Shown here: positions 8,839-56,540 of the stretch, in pieces
How the letters are laid out: each line of letters starts with the position of its first letter
Position numbering within the stretch: position 1 is the stretch's first letter
DNA from: Mucilaginibacter sp.
GTDB taxonomy: Bacteria > Bacteroidota > Bacteroidia > Sphingobacteriales > Sphingobacteriaceae
Direction: 5' to 3'
Length of the DNA: 64,000 nt
Assembly (NCBI RefSeq): GCF_025359345.1
Contig: NZ_JANYGQ010000032.1
Coordinates: 310,001-374,000, forward strand
Translations under genes and position numbers: made by a program
Notes under the pieces: generated by a model
The model's input: the letters and a program-made list of their open reading frames with translations, nothing else
Database searches by the model: none
Told to the model about the DNA's origin: nothing

Positions 8839-10389
8839 ATGGCAACAGTAGCGCTCCACAGTACTGCCGGTAAATGGATAATGGTCTCTGCTATACTCGC
8901 TTCCTCTATGGCATTTATAGATGGCACGGCACTAAACGTGGTTTTACCTGCGCTGCAAAATAGCCTGCAAGCCTCGGGGGCCGATTTGTTTTGGATATTG
9001 AATGCTTACCTGTTGATGCTGGCATCACTGATATTGATAGGCGGCTCGCTAGGGGATAAGCTGGGCCGGAAAAAGATATTTATGGCCGGCATTTTTATTT
9101 TTATCTGCGGCTCGGCCTTGTGTGGCATTGCGCCGGGTGTTACTTATTTAATTGCGTTCAGGATATTACAGGGAATAGGCGGCGCATTGATGATTCCCGG
9201 CAGTCTTTCTCTTATTTCGTCCTCCATCAACCCGAATGAACGGGGCAAAGCGATTGGTACATGGTCGGCATTTACCACGGTAGTAACCATGGGGGGCCCT
9301 GTATTGGGCGGCGCATTGGCCGATGCCGGACTATGGCGGTATATTTTTTTTATCAATCTCCCCATAGGCGTCGCGGCTTTAATAATGCTTTGGTTTAAAG
9401 TTAACGAAACTAAAGATGAGGGTGTTGATCAGTCCCTTGATTTTCCGGGTGCTGTGGCTATTGCTTTTGGATTGGCTTTGGTAACCTTTGGCTTTTTGCG
9501 CGTTCCGGCCGTTGGCTGGGGTAGCTGGCAGGTGTATATCGCACTAACGGCTGGTGTTTTGTTTTTGATAGCCTTTGTAATTATTGAAAAAACAAGTAAA
9601 CACCCCATGATGCCTTTGCAGCTTTTTACCAACGCCATTTTTAGCGGCGCCAATTTGCTGACCTTATTTTTATATGCGGGGCTTGGGGCGGGTATGCTCT
9701 TTATGTCGTTAAATATGGTGCAGGTGCAGGGATACACCCAGTTACAGAGCGGGCTTACGTTTTTGCCATTTACCCTTATGATGATCAGCCTGGCACGTTT
9801 TGCCGGCGGGCTTGCCGATAAATTTGGCCCGCGGCTGCTTTTGATTTGCGGCCCGGCTGCAGCAGGCGCCGGTTTGCTGTTGCTTTCTTTTATTAAGCAA
9901 ACCGCCGGCCCCGGTGATTACTGGACAACCTTCTTCCCGGGGGTTATTATCTTTGGCTTGGGTATGTCGTTCACAGTGGCGCCTTTGACCGCCGCAGTAA
10001 TGGGGTCGGTTAGTGACCATTTTTCCGGCACCGCATCGGGCGTAAATAATGCTGTTTCGCGTATTGCCGGTGTGTTTGCTAACGCGATTTTTGGTGCGCT
10101 GGCCGTTTTGTTTTTTAGTGGCGCGCTGCAGCCGAGGTTAAAAGATGTGAACCTTAATTACCAGCAAAAGCAGGAGATTATGGCCCAGTCGTCAAATCTT
10201 GGGGATGCACATGTACCCTATGGCATCACTACCGACGAACAGACGATGAAGAAAATGTTCCACGAGAGTTTCATCAGTGCTTATGCCAAAATAATGCGTA
10301 CGTCAGCCGGGCTCGCGTTTTTAGGTGCTTTGATGGGTGCGGTTTTTATTAAGAAGTCCGGAAAGACGGGAAAGTCCGAAAGTCAGTAA
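8839..10389 (+). CDS. MFS transporter, DHA2 family (14-TM type)
   Basis: MAFIDGTALNVVLPALQNSL, GGSLGDKLGRKKIFMAGI, QGIGGALMIPGSLSLI. Confidence 0.9.
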   Translation: MATVALHSTAGKWIMVSAILASSMAFIDGTALNVVLPALQNSLQASGADLFWILNAYLLMLASLILIGGSLGDKLGRKKIFMAGIFIFICGSALCGIAPGVTYLIAFRILQGIGGALMIPGSLSLISSSINPNERGKAIGTWSAFTTVVTMGGPVLGGALADAGLWRYIFFINLPIGVAALIMLWFKVNETKDEGVDQSLDFPGAVAIAFGLALVTFGFLRVPAVGWGSWQVYIALTAGVLFLIAFVIIEKTSKHPMMPLQLFTNAIFSGANLLTLFLYAGLGAGMLFMSLNMVQVQGYTQLQSGLTFLPFTLMMISLARFAGGLADKFGPRLLLICGPAAAGAGLLLLSFIKQTAGPGDYWTTFFPGVIIFGLGMSFTVAPLTAAVMGSVSDHFSGTASGVNNAVSRIAGVFANAIFGALAVLFFSGALQPRLKDVNLNYQQKQEIMAQSSNLGDAHVPYGITTDEQTMKKMFHESFISAYAKIMRTSAGLAFLGALMGAVFIKKSGKTGKSESQ

Positions 10390-10482
10390 AGTCCGGAAGA
10401 CGGAAAAAGTATGAAGTCGACGGTTCTTTGCATTGCATTTTTTGGCTTGCGACTTTCGACTTAAGACTCTCGACTCAAGACT
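10354..10482. repeat. AAGTCCGAAAGTC-family iterated-word inverted repeat overlapping 3' end of the MFS gene
   Basis: AAGTCCGGAAAGACGGGAAAGTCCGAAAGTCAGTAAAGTCCGGAAGACGG ... GACTTTCGACTTAAGACTCTCGACTCAAGACTC. Confidence 0.75.
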
Positions 10483-10630
10483 CCCCCGAAAGGTGATATC
10501 AACATATTTAAAAACTACCAATAGTTATACTTTGCAGTGTTACTTTGAGGATAGTAAAATCTGCTTAAAAGATAACAACGCCTTTGTTTTGGGGCGACCG
10601 TCGATATAAAGAATTAACTAACACAATTTG

Positions 10631-27636: not shown

Positions 27637-27760
27637 TTGATTGAGTTGGATTGGCTTGAGTAAGTTCGGGTAGAGTTTACCAAGTTGATTGAGTTGGATT
27701 AGGTTGATAGCGTTGGTTTCTGGTATGAAACCTAATCAACTTAATCCAACTCAATCAACC
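27637..27760. repeat. TTGATTGAGTTGGATT iterated-word inverted repeat
   Basis: TTGATTGAGTTGGATT at 27637-27652 and 27685-27700; inverted AATCCAACTCAATCAA at 27743-27758. Confidence 0.85.
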
Positions 27761-44439: not shown

Positions 44440-44934
44440 TTAGTCTCGCATATTAATATACTGTAAGGGCTGCCCAAAATCATCCTTACGGCAAAGGGCT
44501 ATTACGGCTTGTAAATCATCAATCTTTTTAGCCTGCACGCGTACCTGGTCGTCCATAATTGATGCTTGCACCTTCAGTCCGCTATCTTTTATCTTTTTAA
44601 CAACTTTTTTTGCCGCTTCTTTATCAAATCCTTCCTTGATTTTTATCTCTTTACGTATCATGTTTCCCGAGGCAGATTGCACGTTGCCGTCTAAATCCAA
44701 AGCTTTTGGGTCCAGGTTTTGTTTTACCATACGGCTGATAATAGCATCGCTGATAGCCTTTAACCGCATATCATTTTCCGTAACCACGGTTATCACGTTG
44801 GTTTTTTTATCAAGGTCGATAGTGCTTTTGGAATCGTTAAAATCATAACGGTTTAAAATCTCTTTTTTTGCGATGTTAATGGCATTATCAAGCGTTTGGC
44901 CATCTATTTTGCTTACAATATCAAAGGTTGGCAT
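44440..44934 (-). CDS. YajQ family nucleotide (c-di-GMP)-binding protein
   Basis: MPTFDIVSKIDGQTLDNAINIAKKEILNRYDF, IKDSGLKVQASIMDDQVRVQAKKIDDLQAVI. Confidence 0.94.
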   Translation of the reverse strand: MPTFDIVSKIDGQTLDNAINIAKKEILNRYDFNDSKSTIDLDKKTNVITVVTENDMRLKAISDAIISRMVKQNLDPKALDLDGNVQSASGNMIRKEIKIKEGFDKEAAKKVVKKIKDSGLKVQASIMDDQVRVQAKKIDDLQAVIALCRKDDFGQPLQYINMRD

Positions 44935-44973: not shown

Positions 44974-45134
44974 TTTAGTTCATAGTTGATGGTTCATAGT
45001 TCATAGCCGAAAAGGAATTAGTAGCAGGGGTAAGTAGCAGTAGCAGTTACATCCGTTGGTAAAATAGGATATTAACGACTGCTAACAACTCACAACGGCT
45101 ACTATGAATTATGAACCATCAGCCATGAACTAAA
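44974..45134. repeat. GTTCATAG-family inverted repeat element, copy 1 (161 bp)
   Basis: Arms TTTAGTTCATAGTTGATGGTTCATAGTTCATAG (44974-45006) and CTATGAATTATGAACCATCAGCCATGAACTAAA (45102-45134); 30/33 complementary. Confidence 0.9.
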
Positions 45135-45147
45135 TAATAAAAACACA

Positions 45148-45180
45148 TTAACATACCAAGGAGTTAATATTAAGTTAACA
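45148..45180 (+). promoter_or_regulatory. PhoP-box-like direct repeats upstream of ppk1
   Basis: TTAACA-N10-TTAATA-N5-TTAACA. Confidence 0.3.
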
Positions 45181-45228
45181 TTTAAATAAGCAGATTTGTA
45201 ACCAAGGCCGGGGCCGCTCCCTTTTTAT

Positions 45229-47277
45229 ATGGATATTAAGCACATACCTTTAATTAATCGTGAAATTAGCTGGTTATACTTTAACGACCGCGTTCTGCAG
45301 GAAGCCGCCGACCCCTCTGTTCCGCTGATTGATCGGATAAAGTTCCTCGCTATCTTTTCATCAAACCTCGACGAATTTTACCGCGTAAGGGTCGCAACAC
45401 TAAGCCGTCTTGCCAATTTGAATGAAAAAGCTAAGGAAATTTTAGGTTATAACCCCAAGAAAGTCCTTAACCAGATAAAGAATATCGTAGTACGGCAAGA
45501 GCGCAAGTTTAATAACCTGTACGAGAACATCATTGTAAAGCAACTTGCCGAAGAAAAGATATTTATTTTGAACGATAAGCAGCTTAACGTAAGCCGCGGC
45601 GAGTTTGTGAAACGTTATTTCAGGGAAAGCTTGTTAGCCACCCTGGTGCCTATTATGCTCGATGAAAGCCTGCCGCTTCCCGAACTGCGCGACAGGGCGA
45701 TTTACTTTTTTGTAAAGCTTACCAAAAATAAAAAATCGCGGCTGGCGCTTATTGAGTTCCCGGATAGCTTGCCTCGTTTTATAGTACTGCCGGAGACTAA
45801 TAACCTGAAATTTATCATTTTACTTGATGATATTATCAGGTATAGCCTTGAGGATATCTTCTTCATATTTGAACATGATTCTGTCGAGGCTTACTCCATC
45901 CAGCTTACCCGCGATGCGGAACTTGATCTGGATAAAGAGGTAAGCGAAAAATTTATCGATTCGCTTTCAAAAAGCTTGCAAAAGCGTAAAAAGGGCAAAC
46001 CGATGCGTTTGTTGTACGATTCGGAAATGCCGCTGGATATGCTGAAGTACCTGGTAAACAAAATGGGGCTGAGCGGCGAAAGCCTTATCCCCGGCAACAG
46101 GTATCATAACTTTAAAAATTTTATTGCGTTCCCTAACGTGGGCCGGCCTGAACTGGAGTACGAAAAAACCGTTGCTTTGCCTGTTGATGGTCTGTCATTT
46201 GGTAAAAGCCTGATGGGGATGATTGCCAAAAAAGACTACCTGATCAGCACGCCTTATCAGTCATATGATTACGTGATCCATTTTTTGCGCGAGGCTGCTA
46301 TCGATCCAAAGGTAAAAGAGATAAGTATCGCCGTTTACCGCCTTGCCGAAAACTCGCGCATAATGCACGCGCTGATGAGCGCCGCCAAGAATGGTAAAAA
46401 GGTAACCTGCCTGGTTGAGCTTAGGGCCCGGTTTGATGAACAAAACAATATATCCTGGAGCCGCAGGCTGGAAGAAGAGGGCGTTAATGTGCTTTACGGC
46501 ATAGAGGGCTACAAAGTACACTCGAAAATTTGCCTGGTGATGCGGTTAGAAAAGGAAAAACCAGCTTATTACGCCTGCTTGTCAACAGGGAACTTTAACG
46601 AGAAAACTGCCCGAATGTATGCCGACCATACCTTGCTTACTGCCAATAAAAAAATAACCGCCGACCTCGTAAATGTTTTTAAGGCATTGGGCAAGGGAGT
46701 GTTACCCAAAGGACTGAAAAGCCTTATCGTATCTCCGATTGACGCGCGGCCTGCAATTTATAAGCTGATTGACAATGAGATAAAGAACGCTAAGGCTGGC
46801 AAAAAGGCTTACATGATATTGAAGATGAATAGCCTTGCTGACGAGCAATTGATAGCCAAGCTATACCAGGCCAACAATAGCGGGGTTAAAATAACGCTTA
46901 TAATAAGGGGAATGTGCTGCCTGATAGCGGGCATGAAGGGCTATAGCGAAAATATAGAGGTCTTAAGTATAGTCGATAAATACCTGGAGCACGCGCGTGT
47001 GCATATTTATTGCAACGGCGGCAATGAGCTTATTTACCTAACATCGGCCGATTTTATGACGCGCAATATCGACACCCGGGTTGAGGTTGGCTTCCCGATA
47101 TACGACGAGCACTTAAAGAAAGAGGTGCGGGATATTATTGACTTGCAACTAGAGGATAACACCAAATCGCGCGAGATAAATAGCCACAACACTAATAAAT
47201 ATCACAAAACAAAGTCAGACCACCCTCAACGGGCACAGGTCGACATTTATAATTATTTGAAATATAAAGTACAATAA
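45229..47277 (+). CDS. ppk1: Polyphosphate kinase 1
   Basis: NREISWLYFNDRVLQEA, YRLAENSRIMHALMSAAKNGKKVTCLVELRARFDEQNNI, STGNFNEKTARMYADHTLLTA. Confidence 0.95.
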   Translation: MDIKHIPLINREISWLYFNDRVLQEAADPSVPLIDRIKFLAIFSSNLDEFYRVRVATLSRLANLNEKAKEILGYNPKKVLNQIKNIVVRQERKFNNLYENIIVKQLAEEKIFILNDKQLNVSRGEFVKRYFRESLLATLVPIMLDESLPLPELRDRAIYFFVKLTKNKKSRLALIEFPDSLPRFIVLPETNNLKFIILLDDIIRYSLEDIFFIFEHDSVEAYSIQLTRDAELDLDKEVSEKFIDSLSKSLQKRKKGKPMRLLYDSEMPLDMLKYLVNKMGLSGESLIPGNRYHNFKNFIAFPNVGRPELEYEKTVALPVDGLSFGKSLMGMIAKKDYLISTPYQSYDYVIHFLREAAIDPKVKEISIAVYRLAENSRIMHALMSAAKNGKKVTCLVELRARFDEQNNISWSRRLEEEGVNVLYGIEGYKVHSKICLVMRLEKEKPAYYACLSTGNFNEKTARMYADHTLLTANKKITADLVNVFKALGKGVLPKGLKSLIVSPIDARPAIYKLIDNEIKNAKAGKKAYMILKMNSLADEQLIAKLYQANNSGVKITLIIRGMCCLIAGMKGYSENIEVLSIVDKYLEHARVHIYCNGGNELIYLTSADFMTRNIDTRVEVGFPIYDEHLKKEVRDIIDLQLEDNTKSREINSHNTNKYHKTKSDHPQRAQVDIYNYLKYKVQ

Positions 47278-56414: not shown

Positions 56415-56540
56415 GTTCATAGTTCATAGTTAGTGGTTCATGGCCATTTAAGTATGAATTGTGGATTTGAGTTAATTATTGACACGATAGATGAGGCCGC
56501 GGTAGCTGCTATGAACTGTCATCTATGAACCATGAACTAA
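56415..56540. repeat. GTTCATAG-family inverted repeat element, copy 2
   Basis: GTTCATAGTTCATAGTTAGTGGTTCATGGCC ... GCTATGAACTGTCATCTATGAACCATGAACTAAC. Confidence 0.85.

Follow-up and report, generated by a model that had tools for sequence, protein, structure and literature searches.

A gene-less, heptamer-armed element between yajQ and ppk1 of Mucilaginibacter as a probable derivative of an IVS-like mobile element with a PF05635 gene

The window, by which the whole 64-kb stretch of Mucilaginibacter DNA analysed here is meant, contains the divergent genes yajQ and ppk1, and the spacer between them is occupied by a short inverted-repeat element that had been noticed in an earlier, sequence-only reading, from which both gene names are taken. 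The features of this spacer, together with a second element of the same family, are listed below.

44440..44934, minus strand: yajQ, flanking gene
44974..45134, no strand assigned: whole element, a short copy with no gene, of the AGTTCAT heptamer-armed family
44974..45006, plus strand: left arm, TTTA followed by four tandem, inward-reading heptamers (GTTCATA, GTTGATG, GTTCATA, GTTCATA)
45020..45049, plus strand: nested interior array, AGTAGCAGGGGTAAGTAGCAGTAGCAGTTA
45073..45086, minus strand: inverted counterpart of that interior array, TAACGACTGCTAAC
45102..45134, minus strand: right arm, the heptamer array of the left arm inverted and complementary to it at 30 of 33 positions
about 45165..45201, plus strand: conserved block 5' of ppk1, outside the element and kept in species with and without it
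45229..47277, plus strand: ppk1, flanking gene
56415..56537, no strand assigned: second family element, occupying the whole interval from a phoH-like gene (ends 56409) to purC (starts 56545)

The element measures 161 bp, and its 33-nt arms, 95 nt apart, are 91% complementary at the same coordinates as given by the sequence-only reading, whose further description of arms made of reiterated GTTCATA and GTTGATG words, of a second repeat nested in the interior, and of an element devoid of ORFs also held. A period-7 tandem array runs through the left arm at 44976-45006, the arm unit of the family being the heptamer GTT[CG]AT[AG] in four copies whose G-rich strand reads inward from both ends; no ORF of at least 100 aa overlaps 44974-45134, and a PF05635 gene, such as lies between the arms of the coding relatives described below, is absent as well. 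Among the inverted pairs detected by a scan of the window under one scoring scheme, this element obtained the top score. When folded alone, its plus strand reaches -65.7 kcal/mol (z -9.8, with 0 of 200 shuffles equally low) and its minus strand -62.6 kcal/mol (z -10.1). Rfam at the gathering threshold returned no match in five loci, including that of yajQ-ppk1, which argues against a known RNA family as the identity of the element. The interior is partly common to two elements elsewhere in the genome (L094 and L078). As for the claim that the element occupies the divergent promoter region, its position between yajQ and ppk1 stands; the ppk1 promoter, however, probably lies outside it, because the element stops before the conserved block, which is the probable promoter region of ppk1.

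Other repeats are present in the window. A probable array pair of a different word lies at 10354-10486, its left side made of AAGTCCGGAAAGAC-type words and its right side of GACTTTCGACTTAAGACTC words in inverted orientation, and the end of a transporter-like ORF (8839-10389) runs into it; at 27684-27759 there is a strong 25-nt inverted repeat, GTTGATTGAGTTGGATTAGGTTGAT, with no 7-nt periodicity.

Orthologous yajQ-ppk1 regions were compared in 30 genomes. The two nearest species (G049 and G045) carry an element of the same arm type at the same place, with alignable flanking genes and unrelated interiors, and in three further genomes (G059, G014 and G055) the element is built on another word, AGTCCAT. 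Unrelated sequence fills the spacer in G023 and G033, and the spacers of G029, G026, G031, G017, G013 and G056 are short and free of arms. Judging by these empty or otherwise occupied spacers, the site is not a fixed one, nor is it under strict conservation; the arms seem to outlast the interiors there. No exact insertion junctions could be derived from G045 and G049, whose DNA, at 74-80% identity, is too distant. The corresponding spacer of G052 (L260) holds a different palindromic insert, CCTCTCC...GGAGAGG, with an apparent flanking direct duplication of CCAATTTGTTT.

Throughout the 6.9-Mb genome, the arm pattern GTTCATRGTTSATRG has 133 matches, compared with 0 for the reversed control. Reading 57 genome stretches led to about 60 copies, with 59 places defined, 55 of them intergenic and 25 with both arms under strict criteria; the related element that had been reported at 56415-56540 is real, its span being 56415-56537. 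The interiors of 28 paired elements range from 9 to 153 nt, and only four pairs of these elements have detectably similar interiors, the remainder being unrelated; an exact target-site duplication of at least 4 bp was found in none of the 28. Arm likeness within one element is 0.815 vs 0.814 between elements (2237 of 5000 permutations as high), which argues against a hairpin kept by compensatory change; because arms of the same element are not more alike than others, it is the word rather than the specific arm pairing that seems to be the conserved unit. One arm pair 1.27 kb apart (L088) encloses merely a transporter-like gene and was judged coincidental. Genus-wide, the number of arm matches ranges from 0 to 301 per genome, and the pattern is nearly absent from the sampled other families of the class. 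A run of about 13 perfect tandem GTTCATA copies (L110, G035:C6:165800-167200) suggests that arm arrays can expand. Few copies elsewhere, or strict conservation at the locus in all relatives, had been held to indicate a locus-specific regulatory structure; what was found instead are many copies and yajQ-ppk1 spacers that are empty in several relatives, in keeping with the dispersed, mobile-type family originally proposed.

In sister species, some arm pairs stand 430-490 bp apart, and each of these encloses one ORF of about 116 aa. Coding elements with AGTTCAT arms are located, for instance, at purK-purE in G056, NAD kinase-CBS in G023, and pta-ackA in G035, where the host gene names are those that we take from reading the translations. 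The enclosed product belongs to PF05635/TIGR02436 (23S-rRNA-IVS/S23 four-helix bundle, Avd fold), a family with solved structures for which, to our knowledge, neither a function nor a catalytic activity has been described. Its predicted structure (mean pLDDT 96) matches 2GSC (TM 0.93) and 2RLD (0.83) and, more distantly, Avd, the accessory protein of diversity-generating retroelements (DGRs), with which it shares its fold (4DWL, TM 0.80; Avd in DGR ribonucleoprotein structures, 0.75-0.78); the two nevertheless differ, with a weak profile match and only about 8% identity. A PADLOC search gave no match, which speaks against a defence gene as the identity of this ORF, and the phage records searched gave no match either. 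PF05635 genes occur in 90 of the 118 genomes sampled in the phylum and also in several other phyla, and within one search the proteins with AGTTCAT and AGTCCAT arms form neighbouring subfamilies. The genome of the window has two PF05635 genes of its own, both of which lie within inverted arrays, but of different 8-nt words; a gene of the AGTTCAT subfamily is absent from it despite the 133 arm matches.

The purK-purE coding element is found in six species and is missing from many. At five such loci (L308, L309, L311, L319 and L330), the outermost ATGAAC of the right arm apparently gives the start codon of purE, and the insertion appears to have replaced the gene's own start region. The same spacer contains an unrelated palindromic repeat of the GTCATTGCGAGGAACGAAGCAATC type in other species (L312-L317, L322 and L327), and it appears to attract repeats of several families.

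Movement of the arms together with the gene as one unit is likely on the distribution of the AGTTCAT and AGTCCAT subfamilies, whose 36 loci occupy about 10 different host sites; identity between proteins from separate sites reaches 90%, and the likeness in DNA breaks off at the arms or close to them. Moreover, genomes with an AGTTCAT-type gene have a median of 51 arms vs 8.5 for the others (P 4e-6, not corrected for phylogeny). Exceptions to this correlation are the genome of the window (133 arms) and G045 (192), and because both are rich in arms with no close gene, either the gene has disappeared or copies survive or spread in some other way. A pair of Calothrix plasmids with the same PF05635 gene has the same gene order and hence supplies no insertion pair. 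Where a PF05635 gene lies between like-oriented host genes, it is oriented with them in 114 cases and against them in 5; as a control, nearby stretches in Mucilaginibacter only gave 171:43 for ordinary genes and 26:15 for short genes.

The generality of this arrangement was assessed by comparing the flanks of PF05635 genes with those of other ORFs at the same loci, using one local-alignment score and a cut-off of at least 14. Pooled over several phyla, 108 of 145 PF05635 loci lie within inverted arrays, compared with 5 of 228 control ORFs, where the samples consist of the best-scoring PF05635 members and more divergent ones may show such arrays less often; about a quarter of the 145 loci have no arms at the threshold. 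The array score is passed by 31 of 35 PF05635 genes in the genus sample (0 of 48 controls), by 61 of 73 in close relatives (2 of 97 controls), and by 17 of 30 in the phylum sample (3 of 26 controls). Similarly, it is passed by 22 of 28 in non-Bacteroidota genomes (0 of 57 controls), about half of these loci being also in the close-relative set, and by all 10 plasmid genes, nine of them cyanobacterial and the other from Riemerella. Among the 108 passing loci, the best arm period is 7 in 100, and G outnumbers C on the inward-reading strand in 104. At the same time, arm words become more alike as protein identity increases (Mantel r 0.774; 0 of 2000 permutations), with mean arm 5-mer similarity rising from about 0.03 below 40% protein identity to 0.81 above 80%. 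The association and the anatomy are well supported by these comparisons.

Two plasmid loci, L301 (Anabaena sp. 90 pANA02) and L303 (Pseudanabaena galeata pPg_01), have a PF05635 gene with word arrays between cas6 and cas4, a position within CRISPR operons. Argonema antarcticum (L364, G224) has a PF05635 gene with very long GTCAGTT arrays, a word whose letters resemble those of TCAGTTA, which is the published TAACTGA repeat read on the other strand.

Among the closest known systems are the intervening sequences (IVSs) of 23S rRNA with an S23p/IVP ORF, e.g., that of Coxiella, which has a 28-bp terminal stem and is excised by RNase III, and for which a mobile-element origin and a mobility role of S23p have been suggested without test (PMC4990558). 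Common to both are a PF05635-family ORF of about 115-125 aa within terminal inverted repeats, a stem of about 28 bp, a total of about 430 nt, and a gene in the sense of transcription; the terminal stem is also present in the yajQ-ppk1 element. In contrast to the rRNA IVSs, the elements described here, the yajQ-ppk1 copy included, lie in spacers of protein genes, their arms are heptamer arrays matched to the protein subfamily, many copies are gene-less, and RNase III cutting is known for the IVS only. Heptamer repeats that have no evident way of spreading have been described in Beggiatoaceae, in cyanobacteria, and in a few Bacteroidetes (PMC4679880). The cyanobacterial STRR and the TAACTGA repeats of Beggiatoaceae resemble the present arrays as intergenic tandem arrays of 7-nt words with a patchy distribution, but differ in having been described as direct repeats with neither a gene nor an inverted partner (PMC4679880). 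Beside 30 TAACTGA loci in the phylum sample no PF05635 gene was found, which speaks against TAACTGA repeats as PF05635 arms, this being a weak negative given that gene-less AGTTCAT copies are equally remote from a gene; TAACTGA arrays had no match in plasmids.

Other origins for the family have to be weighed against a mobile element of its own kind. The anatomy of short, gene-less, intergenic, high-copy elements with terminal inverted repeats is that of a classical DNA MITE, in which short copies are moved by the transposase of an ordinary IS that shares their terminal sequences, with the PF05635 gene carried along as a passenger; however, target duplications are lacking, interiors are non-homologous, no transposase gene that could be the parent was seen between matching arms at the fetched loci, the genome's four Y1 genes are unflanked by matching arms, and PF05635 recurs across phyla between matched arms with subfamily-specific words, so that this origin is quite unlikely. 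Less likely still is a REP-type palindrome that a Y1 (RAYT) transposase would have dispersed, the partner that had been suggested from the sequence. High-copy intergenic palindromes and four Y1_Tnp genes in the genome would fit such a pair, but no arm array flanks three of these genes (L039, L040 and L041), and beside the fourth (L042) there is only one partial match of two heptamers. REP anatomy differs from period-7 tandem arrays of subfamily-specific words, which also counts against a REP origin and makes it barely credible; in sister species, what these arms enclose is a PF05635 four-helix-bundle gene and not a RAYT.

Host-kept regulatory arrays, with the heptamers as binding sites, PF05635 as the regulator and spread as incidental, are unlikely as well. 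TAACTGA repeats in Beggiatoaceae have been proposed to be recognised by a regulator that binds RNA or DNA (PMC4679880). A regulatory role would agree with arms that outlive interiors at yajQ-ppk1, with arms of one element no more alike than other arms, as though selection acted on the word, and with a right arm that often provides the purE ATG at purK-purE; it is at odds with the patchy presence, the empty sites, the 0-301 matches per genome, and the occurrence of gene and arms together at about ten sites whose flanking genes have no shared function that was seen. Simple growth of tandem repeats, in which slippage and recombination expand and convert arrays with no dedicated mobile unit, draws on the long GTTCATA run in G035:C6, where arrays do expand, and on the word that differs between species at the same yajQ-ppk1 locus, but it leaves the inverted placement, the fixed period of 7, the polarity across phyla, and the co-variation of word and PF05635 subfamily unexplained and is very improbable.

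The preferred reading is that the yajQ-ppk1 feature is a gene-less, non-autonomous, MITE-like derivative of an IVS-like mobile element, to which we give a probability of about 70%; that the copy belongs to the heptamer-armed family is very likely. The sequences themselves show the family, its anatomy, its orthologous presence and absence, the unit of arms and gene at many sites, the co-variation of word and protein subfamily, the nearly universal 7-nt period, the inward G-rich polarity, and the co-orientation of gene and operon. What counts against it are the lack of target duplication and the mostly unrelated interiors, which are unlike a copied transposon, the lack of a matching PF05635 gene in the genome of the window, the lack of a known catalytic activity of PF05635, and the approximate quarter of PF05635 loci that have no arms at the threshold.

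Full-length members, which occur in sister species, consist of one PF05635 gene of about 116 aa enclosed by inverted arrays of about four AGTTCAT copies each. The Avd-like protein, whose solved relatives form a pentameric ring, would bind the heptamer arms and promote the spread of whatever they enclose, and its role as a mobility factor is plausible and somewhat favoured. The arms would pair as a hairpin in a host transcript, the protein would recognise this hairpin, and an enzyme provided in trans would copy the hairpin RNA back into DNA between genes. Avd, the structural relative, acts on RNA together with a reverse transcriptase. A cycle via the host transcript is preferred because of the co-orientation of gene and operon and the parallels with IVS and Avd; the RNA step itself is a tentative hypothesis. 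The copy in the window would have been made in trans, with no evident function for yajQ or ppk1.

A wider reading, which is possible though somewhat doubtful in its entirety, would let PF05635/TIGR02436 proteins define a class of mobile elements that spans the bacteria and lacks a known recombinase, combining subfamily-specific recognition of heptamers, inverted end arrays, an operon-oriented transcript route, and the spawning of gene-less copies. The 23S rRNA IVSs, and possibly the heptamer repeats of cyanobacteria and Beggiatoaceae, would then be special cases, and the PF05635 protein may help to make the word arrays. No publication that connects PF05635 genes with arrays of heptamers or with scattered copies devoid of a gene was found, with most subscription journals and bioRxiv outside the scope of the search, and the absence of a published description is not proof of novelty.

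The finding that a PF05635 gene usually lies between arrays of its own subfamily's word gives this family a testable role and a ready word-binding assay. An IVP protein has been listed as CRISPR-associated (PMC10910872), and an element between cas6 and cas4 may explain that listing. Bacterial heptamer repeats whose origin is unexplained may, moreover, derive from heptamer-armed PF05635 elements, and the sequences as a whole suggest a type of mobile element that is widespread, has relatives across many phyla, and contains no transposase that can be recognised.
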